A DNA stretch of 42,934 nt from a virus: the IMG/VR virus record IMGVR_UViG_3300033144_004364, positions 1 to 42,934 of that record; one strand, given 5' to 3'. Under the pieces are notes generated by a model. It worked only from the letters and a program-made list of their open reading frames with translations, did no database searches and was not told the origin of the DNA. How positions within the stretch are numbered: the stretch's first letter is position 1; the number at the start of each line of letters is the position of its first letter. This document shows, piece by piece, positions 1,466 through 10,274 of this stretch. Made by a program: the position numbers and the translations under genes.

Positions 1466-1712
1466 ATGGACTTGGATGAATTACCCGATTGGCTTTCCGC
1501 TTGAGGATCGTGATGATCTTGGCGGCGAGAGAACGGGTCCGAAATGCGCCCTTACCATGGAATACACGGATGATGATATTGTCAGCCTGAAACAACAGGT
1601 GATGATGAACGGTTTGCGAGAAGATATTCCCAATCTTGAAAAGTGGAAAGCAAAGTCTTTGATGCTTGGTTGGTTGAGCGATCAGTTTGGAGCGAAAAAA
1701 GATGAAACGTAG
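1452..1712 (+). CDS. Hypothetical acidic protein, 86 aa
   Basis: The start ATGATG follows GAAGGAGACAG, a strong ribosome site at ideal spacing, so start and frame are secure. The product has a Trp/Pro-rich N-terminus (MMSLKWTWMNYPIGFPLEDR) and two probable helices, DDDIVSLKQQVMMNGLRED and LEKWKAKSLMLGWLSDQFGA. No family is recognised. Its last codons overlap the start of the Tat-signal gene by 11 bases, so both are probably translated from one message. Confidence 0.65.
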   Translation: MMSLKWTWMNYPIGFPLEDRDDLGGERTGPKCALTMEYTDDDIVSLKQQVMMNGLREDIPNLEKWKAKSLMLGWLSDQFGAKKDET

Positions 1713-1974
1713 AGAATTTTTAAGACATTCAATCCATGCTGCCCTGGTGGTGGCTGTGCCGACTGCTTTGATTGTTTCACGTGGAACATCATCGGGTCAG
1801 TTGTGGACTGATGGCACGGGCGCGAACGTCACTTTATGGGGTGATGTTCATCCTCATAATGGCGATTATTACGCCTTTGTCCATCCCTCGAACATGAAGT
1901 CTTTTGGTTTGTTTACCGGCGAGATTGGTCATTACGAGGGTGTTCGATTTATTGAACAGGCGACATTATCATGA
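1702..1974 (+). CDS. Tat signal peptide fused to a major-capsid-protein fragment, 90 aa
   Basis: ATG 1702 is chosen because GGAG at 1689-1692 lies nine bases upstream; an upstream TTG would put five residues before the signal. Residues 1-27 form a twin-arginine signal (KRREFLR at 2-8, then a hydrophobic stretch AALVVAVPTALIV). Residues 54-87 match the C-terminal part of N4-gp56-type capsid proteins: GDYYAFVHP at 54-62 and GEIGHYEGVRFIEQ at 73-86. The capsid protein in this same window has GEIGRYEGCRFIEQ at residues 223-236, and the DNA agrees at 23 of 24 bases (1918-1941 against 9948-9971). It may be a degenerate capsid remnant that gained a signal, or an exported decoy-like protein; neither is shown. 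Confidence 0.75.
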   Translation: MKRREFLRHSIHAALVVAVPTALIVSRGTSSGQLWTDGTGANVTLWGDVHPHNGDYYAFVHPSNMKSFGLFTGEIGHYEGVRFIEQATLS

Positions 1975-2219: not shown

Positions 2220-2622
2220 CGTTCTGATCCTGCCGGACTTCCCGCCAAACATTGCTGCGATTCGCGCAGTGTTTCCCTTAACAGGTGACGAGATATTCGC
2301 CTACGACAACGTAATCTACAATCCCTCGAACCAGAGGTTGCCGGAATCATTGATTGAGCATGAAAAGGTCCACTTCAAGCAGCATGAAAAAATCGGTGGC
2401 TCTAAGGATTGGTGGGATTTATATCTGGTGGACGAAGATTTTCGTCTGGAACAGGAATTGGCAGCGCACAGGAAAGAGTATCAGGTGATATGCCGCACGG
2501 TCAGGGGCAAGCGTGAACGCTACAGGTTTCTTGACCTGCTTGCCAAGCGCCTGTCTGCACCCATGTACGGGCGCGTAGTCACCTACCAGTGGGCCATGGT
2601 TCAGATTAAACGGAGACACTGA
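2212..2622 (+). CDS. HExxH zinc metallopeptidase-like protein, 136 aa
   Basis: The frame opens further upstream, but ATG 2212 has AAGGG eight bases before it and overlaps the previous stop by eight bases, as neighbours do. The product carries LIEHEKVHFKQHEK (residues 48-60), a zinc-binding H50-E51-x2-H54 motif, followed about 26 residues later by LEQELAAHRKEYQ (79-91), which offers a glutamate for a gluzincin-type third ligand. This arrangement matches small phage peptidase-like proteins of about 130-150 residues. No signal peptide is seen, so it is probably cytoplasmic. The substrate is unknown. The flanking genes both encode Tat-signal proteins, which is an unusual context. Confidence 0.7.
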   Translation: MGDVLILPDFPPNIAAIRAVFPLTGDEIFAYDNVIYNPSNQRLPESLIEHEKVHFKQHEKIGGSKDWWDLYLVDEDFRLEQELAAHRKEYQVICRTVRGKRERYRFLDLLAKRLSAPMYGRVVTYQWAMVQIKRRH

Positions 2623-3026
2623 TGGAAAAACTGACACGTAGATCCTTTTTAAAAATCTCTGCTACCGCAATCACCATAGCGGCGTTTCCGGCTATTGCCA
2701 TGCCGAAGGCAACAGGCGTTGTCGAAGAGTTACTTCCCGCACAAGAGGTAGTTGTTCCGCAGCGGTTTTGGAGCGTAAGGGTTGGCCCAGGACGTTACTC
2801 GATGAATTGCTTGGTTGGAAACGATTCCAATAGTTTGCGTCATGTAGCGAAGCAATTCGTGGTTGAGAGAAGACAGACAGTTAGTGTTTGTCTGGATAAA
2901 ATCAGGGATGGGAATTTGTACTTTTCCAATCTGACGCTAGAGCGTCTGGACTACGGGCTTCCGAGCGGGGTCAAGCGCCACACGCAAAGGACTGGCAGGG
3001 TTTTTGCCAGATACAGGCCTCGCTAG
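2622..3026 (+). CDS. Second Tat-signal exported protein, 134 aa
   Basis: The start overlaps the previous stop by one base and follows CGGAG at a six-base spacing. The N-terminus TRRSFLK (residues 5-11) matches the twin-arginine consensus exactly, followed by a hydrophobic helix ISATAITIAAFPAIA with a probable cleavage after AIA at residue 26. The mature part is basic, with one YSMNCLVGN segment and a strand-rich middle; it ends very rich in Arg (RTGRVFARYRPR). No family is recognised. Tat export implies the protein folds or binds a cofactor before crossing the inner membrane. Phage genes with Tat signals are uncommon, and two occur within one kilobase here. Confidence 0.7.
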   Translation: MEKLTRRSFLKISATAITIAAFPAIAMPKATGVVEELLPAQEVVVPQRFWSVRVGPGRYSMNCLVGNDSNSLRHVAKQFVVERRQTVSVCLDKIRDGNLYFSNLTLERLDYGLPSGVKRHTQRTGRVFARYRPR

Positions 3027-3028
3027 TA

Positions 3029-3403
3029 ATGCTTGCCCAGGATTGGAAGAACGTTTATATATGCAAACATTGCCGGGACTTGGTTCCGTTTTATTCATTG
3101 TGTACCTGTTTCAAAAGCGTGGTTGCACAAAAACTACTAGGGAGTTTAACTATGAGCAGTAAAAAAGGTCGCTATGAAATTTTTCAGGGTGAAGACGATA
3201 AATGGTATTTCAACCGGATTGCCGGCAACCATGAAGTTGAACATCCTTCACAGGGTTATTCCACTCGCGGTAACGCGATTGCCGCAATAGGCCGTTGCAT
3301 GGAAGATACCTCACATTACGCTATCGTTGATCGCAATGAGCCGATAGAGGCGCTTGATTCAACGTCCGGAATGGCTCACACATCCGTGGATACACACGCA
3401 TGA
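3029..3403 (+). CDS. DUF1508 (YegP-type) protein with Cys4 leader, 124 aa
   Basis: Residues 46-100 match the DUF1508/YegP fold: GRYEIFQGEDDKWYFNRI, then a GYSTRGNAIAAIGRC helix and a HYAIVD strand. Family members are small alpha/beta proteins of unclear function that occur in bacteria and phages. Two starts are possible. ATG 3029 gives an N-terminal C12-x2-C15 and C25-x-C27 cluster that could form a zinc ribbon. ATG 3152 has a strong GGGAG site at 3140-3144 with seven-base spacing and gives an 83-residue protein that is DUF1508 only. Both products could be made. The end overlaps the next gene by four bases. Confidence 0.7.
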   Translation: MLAQDWKNVYICKHCRDLVPFYSLCTCFKSVVAQKLLGSLTMSSKKGRYEIFQGEDDKWYFNRIAGNHEVEHPSQGYSTRGNAIAAIGRCMEDTSHYAIVDRNEPIEALDSTSGMAHTSVDTHA

Positions 3404-3771
3404 AGGAACTACCTGTTTACCAGTGTCACAAACTTGTCAGGGCCGCGCAGATTACCGCAGTTGAACCAAGCAAAATGTTACACGTGGTATTGCATCTTAA
3501 TGGCGGCTTTGAGGTCGAAGTGAACAACGACTGGACGCATAAACATAGCCCGAGAATTGGTGGGTATTTTGTTGTTTATGACGATGGCTATACGTCCTTT
3601 TCACCCTGTAAAGCGTTTGAGCAAGGCTACGATTTGTGGAAGCCGCCAGCCGCGCTACCGGCAATTGATTTAGTGGAGTTAAAGCGCCTTTGTGTGGAAA
3701 ACGGCATGGATCAGGATATTGCAGATATGGCTTTTGACGATGCGCCCGAGAAGCGAAAAACCGATGACTGA
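3400..3771 (+). CDS. Conserved phage protein of unknown function, 123 aa
   Basis: The segment PRIGGYFVVYDDGYTSFSPC with the following KAFEQGY (about residues 51-76) is a signature I recognise from many unrelated tailed phages, where it is annotated only as a hypothetical protein. The rest is a soluble protein with an N-terminal strand region and a C-terminal helix (DLVELKRLCVENGMDQDIAD). It starts inside the end of the DUF1508 gene (ATGA overlap). No catalytic residues are evident. Confidence 0.65.
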   Translation: MKELPVYQCHKLVRAAQITAVEPSKMLHVVLHLNGGFEVEVNNDWTHKHSPRIGGYFVVYDDGYTSFSPCKAFEQGYDLWKPPAALPAIDLVELKRLCVENGMDQDIADMAFDDAPEKRKTDD

Positions 3772-3774
3772 TTA

Positions 3775-3802
3775 TTGGCCTGATAAATTTCTGTGCTAGT
3801 AT
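3775..3802 (+). promoter_or_regulatory. Candidate sigma70 extended -10 promoter
   Basis: TTGGCC (3775-3780) and TAGTAT (3797-3802) are separated by 16 bases, and the -10 is preceded by TGC (extended -10). It lies in the only sizeable gap before the secreted-protein gene, 35 bases before its start. The -10 matches the consensus at four of six positions, so the call is tentative but the spacing and context fit. Confidence 0.45.
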
Positions 3803-3836
3803 GTGTGACGCAAGCTTAACCAAGCAAGGAGCCGTT

Positions 3837-4271
3837 GTGAAAAAATTCATTCTATTTATCGTTTTAATGCTGTTTTCTGTCCCACTTTTCGCCTTGGATG
3901 ATTGTTTTTCAGGTGCGTGGTACGATCCGGAACGCCCTGGTGAGGGCATTTTTTTGGAGGTACAGGCTGAAAGAGTTGTTGGCAGCTATTACACCTTCCG
4001 ACAAAATCGGCTGGACTGGTATGTATTTGCAAGCGATGAAGGTCGAGAAATTACCCTCTATCAACAGGAATTAATAAGCTATGAGCCGTTCAATGTTATT
4101 AATTGGGAGGTAGGCGAAGTTTTTATCTTTCCTGAATCGCAAAATAACTTGGTGTTTACGTGGCGTCTGGATCTCGATCTTTCTCGGGATGTAAGTTTAC
4201 CGCTCTGCTTAACAGACTGTGTTAGGGGGTTTTTATATACGAGGCTTACTCAGCCGATTTCGTGTAATTGA
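3837..4271 (+). CDS. Secreted protein with a SGxWYxPxxxGxG motif, 144 aa, GTG start
   Basis: GTG 3837 is preferred because AAGGAG (3826-3831) is five bases upstream and the product then begins with a clean Sec signal peptide: KKFILFIVLMLFSVPLFA, with cleavage likely after residue 19. The mature start, CFSGAWYDPERPGEGIFLEV (residues 23-42), resembles a motif (SGxWYxPxxxGxG) that recurs in exported proteins of gammaproteobacteria. Several Cys residues in the mature part could form disulfides in the periplasm. It has its own candidate promoter before it and a strong terminator after it, unlike all its neighbours, so it looks like a moron (host-altering cargo gene). Binding partner and activity are unknown. 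Confidence 0.7.
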   Translation: MKKFILFIVLMLFSVPLFALDDCFSGAWYDPERPGEGIFLEVQAERVVGSYYTFRQNRLDWYVFASDEGREITLYQQELISYEPFNVINWEVGEVFIFPESQNNLVFTWRLDLDLSRDVSLPLCLTDCVRGFLYTRLTQPISCN

Positions 4272-4334
4272 TTTTGGTAATGCTCTTGTTGCGCATGGTT
4301 TACGCAAATTCCTACGCGCTCCCAAGAGCAGGTT

Positions 4335-4364
4335 GACTCGGCTCCCCCCCTTGTTGTCCGAGTC
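4335..4364 (+). other. Stem-loop upstream of the terminator
   Basis: GACTCGG (4335-4341) pairs perfectly with CCGAGTC (4358-4364) around a 16-base loop that contains seven consecutive C. It sits ten bases before the terminator stem. It could stabilise the 3' end of the secreted-protein message or act with the next hairpin; there is no U tract of its own. Confidence 0.5.
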
Positions 4365-4373
4365 ATATTTGCG

Positions 4374-4403
4374 GGGAAGTCGGTCGCAGGACTTCCCTTT
4401 TTT
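4374..4403 (+). terminator. Rho-independent terminator before the head module
   Basis: GGGAAGTC (4374-4381) pairs with GACTTCCC (4390-4397) with an eight-base loop, followed by six T (4398-4403). It ends the secreted-protein unit and lies only 11 bases before the first gene of the head module. Transcripts reaching that gene must therefore read through, start inside the gap, or come from a phage-modified polymerase. Confidence 0.85.
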
Positions 4404-4414
4404 AAAGGACACGC

Positions 4415-5035
4415 ATGGACATAAAAGATTTGATTGATTGGGATTCGGCTGAAATGGCCCCCCACATCAGGGATAAGTTGGAAGCAGCCCTTGTTGATCC
4501 GAAACGTATTTCAAAGGGCATGACGCCAGCACAAGCCAAACGCGATGCCAACGCCGAGCCAGAAGGCGTGATCCAAAACCCGAATCACTTTGATAAAAGC
4601 TATCATGGCGCAACGATGTCGCTGGTCAAGGATATTGGCGATTACCTGATCCGGACTTATCCAGGGTGGGGATGGGTCATTCAGGTTAACGAATTCGGGC
4701 ATATGATTTACGTGACCGTTTCAGAACTTCACCCGACCATGGGTATGAAATTGAGAATGGAAGATGTAATCCACGATCCATCACTGCGGCATATCAAAGA
4801 GCAGGCTGGTCAATTGTTAGAGCGTTTTGATATGCTAAGGATGGGTTTACGGGGTGAGAATTTAAGTCGGTTGATTGACGCGCCCCGCGATGCTGTCGGT
4901 AACTGCATACCGCACATCGATGATTTGAAGGACAAAAAGGCCTCAACACAAGCCGCTGTCGCCAGAAAAATCGCTAAAGGAGATATCAAGATTTTCAAGG
5001 TGAACGGTCAAACAATGGTGAGGATTAAAAAATGA
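4415..5035 (+). CDS. Hypothetical protein upstream of portal, 206 aa
   Basis: The start follows AAAGGACACGC, an acceptable ribosome site directly after the terminator. The product is soluble and helical at both ends, with an aromatic middle segment (YPGWGWVIQVNEFGHMIYVT) that reads like a beta hairpin. The C-terminal part (ARKIAKGDIKIFKVNGQTMV) is basic. I do not recognise a family. Its place immediately before the portal, with an ATGA overlap, suggests a role in packaging or head assembly. No ATPase (Walker) or nuclease motif is visible, so it is not a terminase large subunit; a small-terminase or structural role cannot be excluded. Confidence 0.65.
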   Translation: MDIKDLIDWDSAEMAPHIRDKLEAALVDPKRISKGMTPAQAKRDANAEPEGVIQNPNHFDKSYHGATMSLVKDIGDYLIRTYPGWGWVIQVNEFGHMIYVTVSELHPTMGMKLRMEDVIHDPSLRHIKEQAGQLLERFDMLRMGLRGENLSRLIDAPRDAVGNCIPHIDDLKDKKASTQAAVARKIAKGDIKIFKVNGQTMVRIKK

Positions 5036-7287
5036 GAGAAGGCGCAAGACTGGAAAATGCCGGAGTCGCAGAGGGATATACTTCCGAACCTGCCGATGAC
5101 GCCTCAGAAGTAAGAGGAACGGATGACTGGTGGTTGGCGAGGGCAAGATCGGCCTTTCGTGCCTCTACTGACTGGTTTGACTCGTCCATCCGGCGCAAGG
5201 TCGAGGACAACATGAGAATGTTCAACTCGCAACATCCACTCGGTTCCAAATATCACCATAACGCCTACAGCAAACGATCCAGATTATTCCGTCCAAAAAT
5301 TCGCACCGCCACCCGCAAACTCGAAGCAGCAGCATCCAAGGCTTTCTTCTCCACCCAAGATGCGGTTAGTTGTACCGCACCGAACCCTGGGGAACCCGCA
5401 CAAAAATTATCAGCCACGGTGCAGACTGAATTGCTCAACTACCGTCTTGATCTTGATATTCCATGGTATCTGACCTGTATCGGCGCTTTGCAGGATAGCT
5501 TTAAGCAGGGTGTGGTGATTTCAAAACAGTCATGGAATTACCTTGAAATTGAAGAGGTCTATGAGGATTCATATGAAACCGAAAATGGAACGGAAACGGT
5601 CAGGACGATTGACAGCAAAATAATTCATGATCATCCGGACATTCGCCTTATTCCGGTTGAAAATATCCGTTTATCTCCTGCAGCCGATTGGCGCGATCCC
5701 ATCAATTCCTCTCCATACCTGATCGAACGTGAGCCTTTTTACGTACACGAACTGGTCGAGCGCGGTGGACAACCACAGCAGCGCGGTCATGCCAAATGGC
5801 GCGAAATGTCTCTGGATCAGGTTCGCTCTGCCTTGCGCGATACGTATGATTCAATCCGTCAGGCCAGAGAAGGCCATCGTGAAGACCGGTACGATGATGT
5901 GCGCACAGATGTCGAACTGTATGACATCACCTGGGTCCACCATAACTTCATGCGCGTAGACGGAGAAGATTGGTATTTTGATACACTTGGCGAGGAATTC
6001 ATGCTCTCAGAAGAGCCTGTACCGGCCTCACAGATATTTCCCACAATTAAACGTACCTACACATTGGGTTATTCCACACTGGAAACGCATAAGCCCTATC
6101 CGGCAGGCATGATCGAACTGGTTTCGCCTTTGTCGGAAGAGGTCAACGACATTACCAATTTGCGTCTGGACGCCATCAGGCATGTACTATCACCTAGATA
6201 CTTTATCCGTCGCGGTCAAAGCGTGGATATCCAATCACTCATGAAGAACGTGCCTGGTGGTGTCACGACCATGGATGATCCGAATAATGATGTAAATATT
6301 CGGACAGTCCAAGATCCTACTTCTGGAAGTTATCAGGAACAGGCCAATTTGAATGTTGAGTTTGATGATCTGGTCGGCAACTTCTCCGGATCATCGGTTG
6401 CCAACAACCGCCAGTTGAACGAAACAGTTGGCGGGATGGAATTGTTGGGTGAGGGCGCAGATGAAATTACTGAAATGACGATCATGCTTTTTATTGCTAC
6501 ATGGGTAGAGAATACCTTGCAACAGGTGATGGAGTACGAACAGGCATTTGAATCTGACGAGGTAGTGCTTTCAATCGTCGGTAGTCGTTCTGGTGTCCAT
6601 CCTCGCGCAGCATTTGAAATGCTCAAGCAGCCTACCAGGGTAAAGGTGAATGTCGGCGCTGCCGCCACTTCCCCTGAAAAGAAACTGGAAAAGATCAGTA
6701 TTGCTGTCAAGACCGTTGCGGAAGTCAGGCCGGACTTGGTTCAAAAAATCGAGCCGAAAGAATTGCTCAATGAGATATTCGGTGGAATTGGCTACAAGTC
6801 TGCAGAGCGGTTTTTCCCATCCTTGTTCAAGGAAGAGAAAGACCCCGAAGTATTGCAGCTTGAGCAGAAAGTCCAAGAACTCACACAGGCCTTGGAAACG
6901 GATCAGCCGGCAATTGATGGTCGGACCAAGGTTGCAGAGATTCAGTCTAAGGGCAAGATCGAGATTGAAGGTATGCGCCTGAAATCCGGTGATGCCAAGT
7001 CCAAGGCTGATATGCAACTCAAGCACCGCATTGCTCAGAACAAACTCAAGGTTGATATGTTGACCTATGCCATCAAGCGGGAACAGAATGAACTGACCAA
7101 GCAGGAACTCGGGCAGCAGAAACTTGCTCTTGAACATCAGATCATGATGGACGAGTTAGCCATGGAAAAAGAATTATTGAGTGATACAGAAACTACTGAT
7201 AAAGAGGCTCCAAATATGCCGGGGAATGATAAGGCAGGTATCGTTGCGCGGGATCAATATCAAACCGTGCCACAACAAGCAGGATAA
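5032..7287 (+). CDS. Portal protein, 751 aa
   Basis: The product forms the dodecameric ring at the head vertex through which DNA is packaged and ejected. It is recognised by its N-terminal region (KRSRLFRPKIRTATRKLEAA at about residues 80-100, then AFFSTQDAVSCTAPNPGE) and a following DSFKQGVVISKQSWNY, which are characteristic of the long portals of podovirus-type phages. The length of about 750 residues fits that class. The clip and crown-like C-terminus (from about residue 590) is a long Lys/Glu/Gln-rich coiled coil. It starts within the previous stop (ATGA) and is followed by scaffold-like and capsid genes, as expected. Confidence 0.88.
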   Translation: MREGARLENAGVAEGYTSEPADDASEVRGTDDWWLARARSAFRASTDWFDSSIRRKVEDNMRMFNSQHPLGSKYHHNAYSKRSRLFRPKIRTATRKLEAAASKAFFSTQDAVSCTAPNPGEPAQKLSATVQTELLNYRLDLDIPWYLTCIGALQDSFKQGVVISKQSWNYLEIEEVYEDSYETENGTETVRTIDSKIIHDHPDIRLIPVENIRLSPAADWRDPINSSPYLIEREPFYVHELVERGGQPQQRGHAKWREMSLDQVRSALRDTYDSIRQAREGHREDRYDDVRTDVELYDITWVHHNFMRVDGEDWYFDTLGEEFMLSEEPVPASQIFPTIKRTYTLGYSTLETHKPYPAGMIELVSPLSEEVNDITNLRLDAIRHVLSPRYFIRRGQSVDIQSLMKNVPGGVTTMDDPNNDVNIRTVQDPTSGSYQEQANLNVEFDDLVGNFSGSSVANNRQLNETVGGMELLGEGADEITEMTIMLFIATWVENTLQQVMEYEQAFESDEVVLSIVGSRSGVHPRAAFEMLKQPTRVKVNVGAAATSPEKKLEKISIAVKTVAEVRPDLVQKIEPKELLNEIFGGIGYKSAERFFPSLFKEEKDPEVLQLEQKVQELTQALETDQPAIDGRTKVAEIQSKGKIEIEGMRLKSGDAKSKADMQLKHRIAQNKLKVDMLTYAIKREQNELTKQELGQQKLALEHQIMMDELAMEKELLSDTETTDKEAPNMPGNDKAGIVARDQYQTVPQQAG

Positions 7288-7612: not shown

Positions 7613-7985
7613 AAAGTACGATCCGCTTGACGGTTTTCGAGCGCGTACAGATGATGATGATGCAAACGAAGAGATTGTCAGGGGTATCCGTGGTCTTTCA
7701 GAAATGGGGATTGACCATGCCCTGATAGCTGACATTGTTTCGTCCAGGGATTTGCGTCACGCCCTCACGGAAGATAAAGTCCTTAGCAAACTGGTTGACC
7801 ACGCTGTTAAGATTATTCACAACAATTCGCTGGCATGGACCGAGAGTAATGAACCCGAGAAGCTGAAAAGGGAGCATCTTGAGGCCCGAGCCGCACACAT
7901 AATCCTTACCTGGGCAGAAGCTATTATTCAGTCGGGCAAGGTCGCAGAGCAACAGGTTGCAGAACAGGAAACAAGCAATGAGTAA
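7596..7985 (+). CDS. Helical hypothetical head-module protein, 129 aa
   Basis: ATG 7596 lies inside the end of the zinc-finger gene, consistent with coupling. The product is mostly helical and charged, with segments such as EEIVRGIRGLSEMGIDHALI and AARAAHIILTWAEAIIQSG-type helices, and an acidic Gln/Glu-rich end. It has no Cys and no membrane segment. I recognise no family. The position between portal and scaffold suggests an assembly factor or minor head protein. Confidence 0.6.
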   Translation: MNQNTKKYDPLDGFRARTDDDDANEEIVRGIRGLSEMGIDHALIADIVSSRDLRHALTEDKVLSKLVDHAVKIIHNNSLAWTESNEPEKLKREHLEARAAHIILTWAEAIIQSGKVAEQQVAEQETSNE

Positions 7986-9246
7986 AAAGACACCGAAAAA
8001 AGATGAACCAGTATTGGCAGATGAATTAAAGCCGGACAATCCGGACCACGTTGTTGCCACCGGAGATGAAGAAAATCCGGTATCGGGCAGCAATTATGTT
8101 GAAGACCGGAAGACCATTTATGCCAAGGCCAGAAAGAACCGTGAACTCACTCAGCGTGAAGAGCAGGACAACATGCCTAGCGTCAAGGAAATGAACGAAA
8201 TGGTAGCGGAAGCCGCCGATGAAGCGGAGTTTGAGCATACCGCCCATGATGTTGATCTTGAGGCTGATGCCAGAGCGGAGGAAACCGAAGAGGAAATTGA
8301 GGACGCGGAATACGTCGAAACACCGACCGACGATACGCTTAATCAGATGGCAGACGAAGCAGCATCCGGCGACGATCCGATTGAGGAAGAAGAGCCAGAG
8401 CCGCAGTCTGATGCAGAGGATGGGGAATCGGCAAGGCCAAAACCCGATTTGGATTATGAAGTCAATGATGGTATGGTTGCCGTGAAAGTTGAAGGTAATG
8501 AGTACATTGTTCCAGAAGCCGATGTAATTGCGGCAGGTTCAAAGGCTCAATATCAAAAGAATCGTTCAGCGAATATACGTTTTGAATCAGCAGCTACCGC
8601 AGGAAAGGCGTTGCAAGATGAAAGACTTGAATTCGAGCAACAGCAGAACGATTCTCCAGCCAAAGGGGATCTACCCGACAAGGATGATCTGAGTAAGGCT
8701 GAGTTAAGGAAGTTTCGAGAGAAGCTTCTTGATGCCTCGCTAGACGGTACGCAGGATGATGTTGATGAAATCGTAAAAGAAATCATTGCATTACGACCCG
8801 CACCAGAGGCAGATAACTCGACCGGAAACGCCGAACCGAGAGCATCGGATCGGATTGTCAACGAGTTTGAAACAGCTTACGGCGCTGATCGCGCAGAAGC
8901 GAATCGGTTACTGATTGATAATTATTCTGACATCATGAATGACTCTGATTTGCGGAAAATCGCGGAAAGCAAGTACAAGGAATTACAGGCCTCGCCCAAT
9001 AGTCGTGGCAGGACCGCAGTAGAAATGGCTAGAGAATCCGGCGACTTTGTTCGCAGAATTTCAAAAGCCAAATCTTCAAATTCCAATGTGCAGAAAACCG
9101 AGTTAGAGAACCGCAGACAGAGAAAGCGCGTTCTACCTCAATCGTCGAAAGCCAGATCAACCTCGAAGGCTCCGGAAACTAAAAAGCCTAGGAGTAGTCG
9201 GGAATATATTAGGGATATACAGCGGCGACAAGGAAACCGCCCTTAG
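7978..9246 (+). CDS. Probable scaffold protein, 422 aa
   Basis: The start at ATG 7978 overlaps the previous stop by eight bases. The protein is very acidic through its first 160 residues (runs such as EETEEEIEDAEYVE and EEEEPEPQSDAEDGESARP), then has a short folded stretch (YEVNDGMVAVKVEGNEYIVP, about residues 160-180), a helical middle, and a basic C-terminus rich in Arg and Lys (ENRRQRKRVLPQSSKA). An acidic, helical protein with a basic C-terminal tail, immediately before the capsid gene, is the classical profile of a P22-type internal scaffold whose tail binds coat protein. No protease motif is present. Confidence 0.7.
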   Translation: MSKKTPKKDEPVLADELKPDNPDHVVATGDEENPVSGSNYVEDRKTIYAKARKNRELTQREEQDNMPSVKEMNEMVAEAADEAEFEHTAHDVDLEADARAEETEEEIEDAEYVETPTDDTLNQMADEAASGDDPIEEEEPEPQSDAEDGESARPKPDLDYEVNDGMVAVKVEGNEYIVPEADVIAAGSKAQYQKNRSANIRFESAATAGKALQDERLEFEQQQNDSPAKGDLPDKDDLSKAELRKFREKLLDASLDGTQDDVDEIVKEIIALRPAPEADNSTGNAEPRASDRIVNEFETAYGADRAEANRLLIDNYSDIMNDSDLRKIAESKYKELQASPNSRGRTAVEMARESGDFVRRISKAKSSNSNVQKTELENRRQRKRVLPQSSKARSTSKAPETKKPRSSREYIRDIQRRQGNRP

Positions 9247-9281: not shown

Positions 9282-10274
9282 ATGGCTGGACAATTATGGC
9301 AAGTTGATGTCATTGGCGGGTTCATGTATTCAGATGAACTGTCAGACAAACTCCGTGTTGATGTCCTTCCCTCTGTTAAATTCCGTCAGCTATGTGATGC
9401 GCGGGATGCGATGGAGAAAGGTCTTAACAAGGGTGAACTGTATAACTGGAACGTGTATTCCAGGTTGCAGACCGGTGGTGGTACGCTTGACGAAAATCAA
9501 GAAATGCCTCAGACCAACTTCACGATCACTCAGAACTCTCTGGTTATCACGGAATACGGTAATTCCGTTCCGTACACTGGAAAACTGAATAACCTCTCCC
9601 GGCATCCTGTCGAAGAGATCATCAAAAAGGTGTTGAAGATTGACACCAAAGAAACCCTGGATGGCGCTGCACATGCGCAGTTTAACCTCACAGGCCGAAC
9701 CGTAACTGCCGAAGCTTCTGCTACAGTAGTGACGTTTGAAGAGGGCGGTTGCACCTTGACAAACAACATTGCCATGGGCAAAGAACACATCAAGCTGATC
9801 ATTGACGAAATGAAGGAATCCAATATTCCTCCGTACATGGCTGATGATTATTACGGTATCGGCTGGCCTACCACTTTCCGCAATTTCAAGAATGATCTTG
9901 AAGCCATTTCCTTCTACGTGGAAACCGGTTTTGGTCATATCATGAATGGCGAGATTGGTCGTTACGAGGGTTGCCGGTTCATCGAGCAAACGCACGTTGA
10001 GAAGGGTGGCGCGGTTGATTCAACCACGTGGAACTTCCGAACACGCGATTTGTGGAACAACGGCAAGTCTGACTGGTGTTTCTTCCTTGGCGAAGATACG
10101 GTTGCCGAGGCCATTGTTATTCCGGAAGAGATTCGAGGCCGAATCCCAACCGATTTTGGCCGGTCACGGGGTATCGCTTGGTACGCTCTTTTGGGTTACG
10201 GAATCGTACACCCAGGTAGCGTTGGCGATGCATTTATCAACAATCGCATCATCAAGTGGGAATCCGCAGTCTGA
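9282..10274 (+). CDS. Major capsid protein, N4-gp56/P22 coat type, 330 aa
   Basis: The product is the HK97-fold shell subunit. Recognised features are the N-terminal VLPSVKFRQLCDARDA, the QTNFTITQNSLVITEYGNSV-type E-loop/P-domain entry (about residues 80-100), KVLKIDTKETLDG, and the C-terminal GEIGRYEGCRFIEQ (residues 223-236), which is the hallmark of the N4-gp56 family. Length fits that family. Start follows CAGGAG at ideal spacing. It is separated from the next gene by a 91-base structured gap. A fragment of a related capsid gene, fused to a Tat signal, is present at 1702-1974. Confidence 0.92.
   Translation: MAGQLWQVDVIGGFMYSDELSDKLRVDVLPSVKFRQLCDARDAMEKGLNKGELYNWNVYSRLQTGGGTLDENQEMPQTNFTITQNSLVITEYGNSVPYTGKLNNLSRHPVEEIIKKVLKIDTKETLDGAAHAQFNLTGRTVTAEASATVVTFEEGGCTLTNNIAMGKEHIKLIIDEMKESNIPPYMADDYYGIGWPTTFRNFKNDLEAISFYVETGFGHIMNGEIGRYEGCRFIEQTHVEKGGAVDSTTWNFRTRDLWNNGKSDWCFFLGEDTVAEAIVIPEEIRGRIPTDFGRSRGIAWYALLGYGIVHPGSVGDAFINNRIIKWESAV

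Follow-up and report, generated by a model that had tools for sequence, protein, structure and literature searches.

The locus described here raises the question of why a phage would encode part of a capsid protein behind an export-type signal; namely, whether this arrangement is a by-product of gene decay or recombination or whether it is a maintained accessory gene with a product destined for the cell envelope. We analysed positions 1 to 42,934 of the IMG/VR virus record IMGVR_UViG_3300033144_004364 (this whole stretch of 42,934 nucleotides is referred to as the window) together with related phage contigs, the nearest of which, L003, encodes a capsid that is 91% identical. The gene in question encodes a predicted protein, P0001 (MKRREFLRHSIHAALVVAVPTALIVSRG...GDYYAFVHPSNMKSFGLFTGEIGHYEGVRFIEQATLS), that we refer to as the capsid miniature (Table 1). 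It overlaps the upstream open reading frame (ORF), which stops at 1712, by 11 bases, and an ATGA overlap at 1971–1974 couples it to the ORF downstream. The first-pass annotation had regarded the gene as expressed, an impression with which the plausible ribosome site (GGAG) and the coupling to both neighbours agree. The miniature belongs to a run of small ORFs 5' of the portal gene (5032–7287), and a terminator-like stem at 4373–4398 forms the boundary between this group and the structural genes; a comparable stem occurs in L003 at about 1320–1363. Also within the run are a short ORF (2212–2622) that has no family match and encodes IEHEKVHFKQH, possibly a metallopeptidase motif, and a gene for a predicted Sec-type secreted protein (3837–4271) that has a counterpart in L003 (752–1231; 32% identity, E = 2e-18) and lies beside the miniature in both phages.

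Table 1. Positions in the window of the miniature gene, its parts and the corresponding parts of the major capsid gene.
Feature	Coordinates	Strand	Remarks
Miniature gene (P0001; Tat-type signal and capsid miniature)	1702..1974	+	90 aa; orthologue L003:191-448
GGAG, ribosome-binding-site-like, 9 bases 5' of ATG	1689..1692	+	Read from the sequence
Tat-type signal region, P0001 residues 1-28	1702..1785	+	KRREFLR, 18-residue uncharged stretch, Arg27
Linker, P0001 residues 29-53, unconstrained	1786..1860	+	dN 1.41, dS 0.99 against L003
DYYAFVHP segment of P0001	1864..1887	+	Matches capsid segment from residue 189 on
GEIGHYEGVRFIEQ segment of P0001	1918..1959	+	Matches capsid residues 223-236
Resident major capsid gene, diverged N4-gp56 type	9282..10274	+	TIGR04387 40.6 bits, E 1.8e-10 (below curated cut-off 60); phrog_1357 E 5e-11
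Capsid residues 187-239, part mirrored in miniature	9840..9998	+	hhalign
Capsid residues 203-218, missing from miniature (16 residues)	9888..9935	+	Alignments

The likeness of the miniature to N4-gp56-type capsids (TIGR04387, phrog_1357, Pfam Phage_capsid_3) lies in its C-terminal 37 residues. When a two-sequence profile built from the proteins of the window and L003 was compared with 16 capsids using hhalign, residues 53–89 of P0001 aligned to capsid residues 187–239 with one clean deletion of 16 residues (probability 97.4%, E = 1e-11). The part of P0001 that follows the signal scores 69 against the resident capsid, a value that none of 2,000 shuffles equalled, and the L003 orthologue (P0002) matches TIGR04387 with 18.9 bits (E = 7e-4). 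Both proteins fall short of the 60-bit cut-off for full-length members of TIGR04387 (11.4 bits for P0001 and 18.9 bits for P0002). Sequence comparison thus places in P0001 and P0002 a segment homologous to the TIGR04387 capsid, and neither protein is a member of that family. Within the capsid family, few parts are as conserved as the segment around GEIG; the miniature reads TGEIGH at this point, whereas the capsid reads NGEIGR. At about 16% of the capsid length, with an internal deletion and an export-type signal in front, the miniature alone cannot be a shell subunit. AlphaFold2 returned unusable models for both the miniature (pLDDT 37) and the capsid (pLDDT 31), and a sequence search of the PDB gave only implausible matches. 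No described family matches the miniature, and a literature search, which had most subscription journals outside its reach, found no description of a comparable protein.

To distinguish a maintained gene from a decaying one, we compared the miniature with its relative in L003. The orthologue (MKRRQFLKLTGQAAVCLAVGVPAIVAAVPKKDG...DYVGFVHPDTYGKLMTGEIGHYEGIRFIEQTHLSL) is intact and 46% identical; the search that retrieved it aligned 92 columns with 42% identity (E = 5e-13). Estimates from a counting method applied to these two sequences, which are rough figures, give dN 0.11 and dS 1.48 for the GEIG core, dN 0.35 with saturated dS for the whole capsid-like part and dN 0.58 and dS 1.38 for the signal region, in contrast to dN 1.41 and dS 0.99 for the linker between signal and core. 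These values indicate purifying selection on the signal and the core and not on the linker, as expected of a functional protein that is constrained at both ends. The first-pass annotation had offered the decay of a duplicated capsid gene as one reading, and had proposed searching related phages for homologues and comparing codons; these checks returned an intact orthologue, rather than a decaying fragment with stops, and a constrained core. Both results count against decay: the reading frame is open throughout in L003, and substitutions in the capsid-like core are largely synonymous. The short ORFs between the miniature and the portal gene were not found in L003, except for those at 3837–4271 and 4415–5035, which suggests that the miniature was kept while its neighbours turned over; the L003 contig starts just 5' of its miniature gene. 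On this comparison the miniature is a real gene with an intact relative and not junk, and we consider it very probable that it is a selected capsid miniature with a Tat-type signal, maintained as an accessory gene of the phage.

The same data bear on the origin of the gene. The first-pass annotation had drawn attention to a match of 23 of 24 bases between the miniature (1918–1941) and the capsid gene (9948–9971), which we confirmed exactly. The six codons that follow the match all differ, even though they encode the same residue at five of the six positions. Given the residues in common, the probability of seven identical codons in a row is about 0.005, a post hoc figure, and the count of identical codons overall does not stand out (P = 0.20). 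Because the next codons differ and overall codon identity is as expected, the base match has no value as proof of a recent duplication. We also considered gene conversion; the 24-base block shared with the capsid gene ends abruptly, and a different block is found in L003. The miniature of the window scores 88 against capsids of other lineages and 69 against the resident capsid, and that of L003 scores 94 against its own capsid and at best 102 elsewhere. Both P0001 and P0002 read TGEIGHYEG, and TGEIGH is absent from all sampled capsids. This shared sequence without a capsid counterpart, together with the higher scores to capsids of other lineages, argues for one old gene lineage rather than a newly made duplicate of the capsid gene in this phage; a recent origin from that gene is not supported.

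The N terminus of P0001 combines RREFLR, 18 uncharged residues with a mean hydropathy of 1.68 and then Arg27; that is, a twin arginine, a hydrophobic pair, a hydrophobic stretch of moderate strength and a basic residue ahead of the mature part. In its RRxFL-type motif, moderate hydropathy and basic residue after the hydrophobic stretch, it is like the signals of known Tat-signal proteins (TIGR01409, PF10518), from which the miniature differs in that its cargo is a viral capsid segment and not a cofactor enzyme or an amidase. TIGR01409 (cut-off 16.7 bits) recognizes P0002 with 18.7 bits, and neither this model nor Pfam TAT_signal reports P0001. Of the first-pass description of the gene as a Tat export signal fused to a capsid fragment, the capsid part stands on the profile alignment, and the signal is of a plausible Tat type that TIGR01409 does not certify. 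A simple pattern search found no clear A-x-A cleavage site beyond the hydrophobic stretch of P0001; VVA occurs only inside this stretch, and P0002 has VAA near the end of its own. Tat transport needs a folded mature domain. We regard Tat-dependent targeting of the miniature as likely from these features, and an uncleaved membrane anchor as possible.

To determine how widespread such proteins are, we took 93 loci of capsid-bearing relatives and scored their 9,688 short stop-to-stop frames with a profile of the capsid segment. After a truncated capsid gene (L022), the best frames were those of L003 (E = 7.5e-8), the window (E = 9e-7), L007 (E = 1.8e-3) and L027 (E = 0.03), followed by a frame with E = 0.19. 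All four of these best small proteins have Tat-type signals; TIGR01409 gives 17.5 bits for L007 and 18.6 and 20.8 bits for L027. The capsid-segment matches of L007 and L027 are weak. As L027 had been retrieved through its likeness to the protein from the window and L003 is the orthologue, L007 is the sole independent and unbiased case. Its 86-aa Tat-type ORF (3163–3423) starts from the portal stop codon and contains RIGRIDNVRFIESPHI; the protein is similar to a portal segment as well (52% over 21 residues), and its assignment to capsids is tentative. In L027, another N4-gp56-type phage, two overlapping Tat-type ORFs lie in tandem (7720–8004 and 8001–8345) just 5' of a portal-type gene, and the second has GRVEDIKFIEAPLL, which is similar to GQVEDVCFVLTPQL of its own capsid. 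An ORF of L005 (6833–7252) joins a Tat-type signal to a segment like the tail-fibre-type protein of the same phage (E = 1.7e-4 with its own profile; phrog_4176 E = 0.0044). A candidate from L024 (GQVGSFYNLRFIG) was rejected as a further member; its match to the capsid profile is not significant (E = 0.27 in a five-sequence search) and it is missing from the ranking of the 93 loci.

Approximately eight convincing Tat-type ORFs, chosen by eye among 38 pattern matches, are present in the 93 loci. Tails of three of the eight matched profiles of long ORFs, compared with 452 of 5,158 other short ORFs, for which E below 0.05 was counted, so that the thresholds of the two figures differ; we assume that the 452 are largely truncated genes. 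The overall enrichment of Tat signals with virion segments is modest. Searches of viral contigs with P0001 and with the two-sequence profile found L003, L007 and L027 only. DNA patterns (a Tat start with RFIE) gave unrelated Tat-type ORFs and chance matches and no more true members, two pattern scans of genome contigs gave nothing, and isolate phages yielded only capsid genes or chance matches; among isolates, Escherichia phage PTXU04 and HelliStehle_Bas95 have the closest capsids. The clear members in the collections searched are two, those of the window and L003.

We propose that the miniature is a selected capsid mimic that is sent to the inner membrane or periplasm, a full reading for which we judge the case to be evenly balanced. 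Two capsid segments, DYYAFVHP and GEIGHYEGVRFIEQ, stand behind the twin-arginine-type signal and have lost the 16 residues that separate them in the capsid; the Tat machinery would insert or export the product, which would bring the capsid-like segment to the inner membrane or into the periplasm. The mimic may then occupy a partner that recognizes the corresponding capsid region; candidates are defence sensors, assembly factors and, before export, the capsid subunits of a competing phage. Binding of this kind is a tentative suggestion as the mode of action. The functions put forward in the first-pass annotation, interference with competing phages or periplasmic sensing of capsid, count as one option among several. 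Given how strongly this capsid family conserves the segment, the mimic would be recognized by whatever recognizes many related capsids. Encapsulins and other exapted HK97-fold proteins are capsid proteins in another use that keep the whole fold and build shells, whereas the miniature keeps two short segments only. Capsids have, to our knowledge, no business outside the cytoplasm, and we know of no precedent for a periplasmic role of a capsid piece. True export would mean that part of a capsid protein is used outside the cytoplasm, and would point to recognition of capsids at the envelope or to a new route of competition between phages. Without export, the product would still be a maintained capsid miniature with a gene of its own, and would offer a small, testable handle on the capsid surface that is recognized by partners or sensors. 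A class of small exported virion mimics, whose site of action is the envelope and whose targets are defence systems or rival phages, is conceivable, although we consider it doubtful; its possible members would be the proteins of the window and L003 (capsid), those of L007 and L027 (probably capsid) and that of L005 (tail-fibre-like segment).

Other functions can be envisaged. The miniature might be a decoy that imitates the sensed region of the capsid and diverts a defence sensor, with the signal placing the decoy or its complex at the membrane. Capsid proteins are established triggers of defence: Gp57 of SEC-phi-27 triggers CapRel and the Gol peptide of T4 Gp23 triggers Lit, the recognized element being part of the major capsid protein, and mutants that escape PifA and Pycsar are found in capsid genes (PMC9712102). 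Those elements are parts of a working, cytoplasmic capsid protein, however, and not separate genes with an export-type signal. A segment highly conserved in capsids is indeed kept in the miniature, but export would take the decoy away from cytoplasmic sensors, and this makes the explanation unlikely in our view. All capsid sensors known to us act in the cytoplasm. Less likely again is an uncleaved inner-membrane anchor that keeps the capsid-like segment in the cytoplasm and assists in collecting capsid subunits, or in nucleating their assembly, at the membrane. Such a role has a precedent in T4, whose proheads are initiated on a portal bound to the inner membrane, with gp40 and YidC assisting (PMC9958956), and would suit both a P0001 without a clear cleavage site and the strong conservation of the GEIG segment. 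A Tat motif, however, would send the C terminus outwards rather than keep it in the cytoplasm; moreover, the terminator-like stem downstream of the miniature sets its transcription unit apart, most of the capsid relatives examined show no such gene, and the tail-fibre-like relative in L005 would be left unexplained. Neither known capsid-sensing defence nor membrane assembly as in T4 fits an exported fragment well.

The miniature might also act in competition between phages, by binding the subunits of another phage that has the same capsid family and poisoning their assembly, either ahead of export or in its course. In favour of this, the miniature in the window is more similar to capsids from other lineages than it is to the resident capsid. 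Defence through blocked virion assembly is reported in other forms (PMC10884400). The L003 miniature, however, scores nearly as high against its own capsid as against the best of the others, such that self-poisoning would be expected, and complementation between fragments is a guess; we consider this explanation quite improbable, below the two already discussed. Small chimeric ORFs arise in phages, and recombination could have put a host-derived Tat signal on a capsid fragment, yielding a harmless ORF that persists without function. That there are two clear members only, and that Tat signals are only modestly associated with virion segments (the comparison of 3/8 with 452/5158, at different thresholds), would be in keeping with such a chance fusion. 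It is nevertheless the least probable of the alternatives: the core is constrained next to an unconstrained linker, and the frame is intact in both phages while neighbouring genes have turned over.

The first-pass annotation described Tat signals as rare in phages, which overstates the case, as phage contigs contain several further Tat-type ORFs. One of these lies in the same gene group as the miniature (window 2622–3026; TRRSFLK, 134 aa); it scores 14.4 bits with TIGR01409, below the cut-off, and we found no match for the tail of its product. Unrelated phage contigs (L044, at 6748–7113, L046, L048 and L059) encode a family of Tat-type proteins of 119–121 aa with no match in PHROGs, and L043 has a 458-aa ORF (3228–4604) with a Tat-type start and a weak match to a tail-spike family (phrog_7458, E = 9.5e-4).
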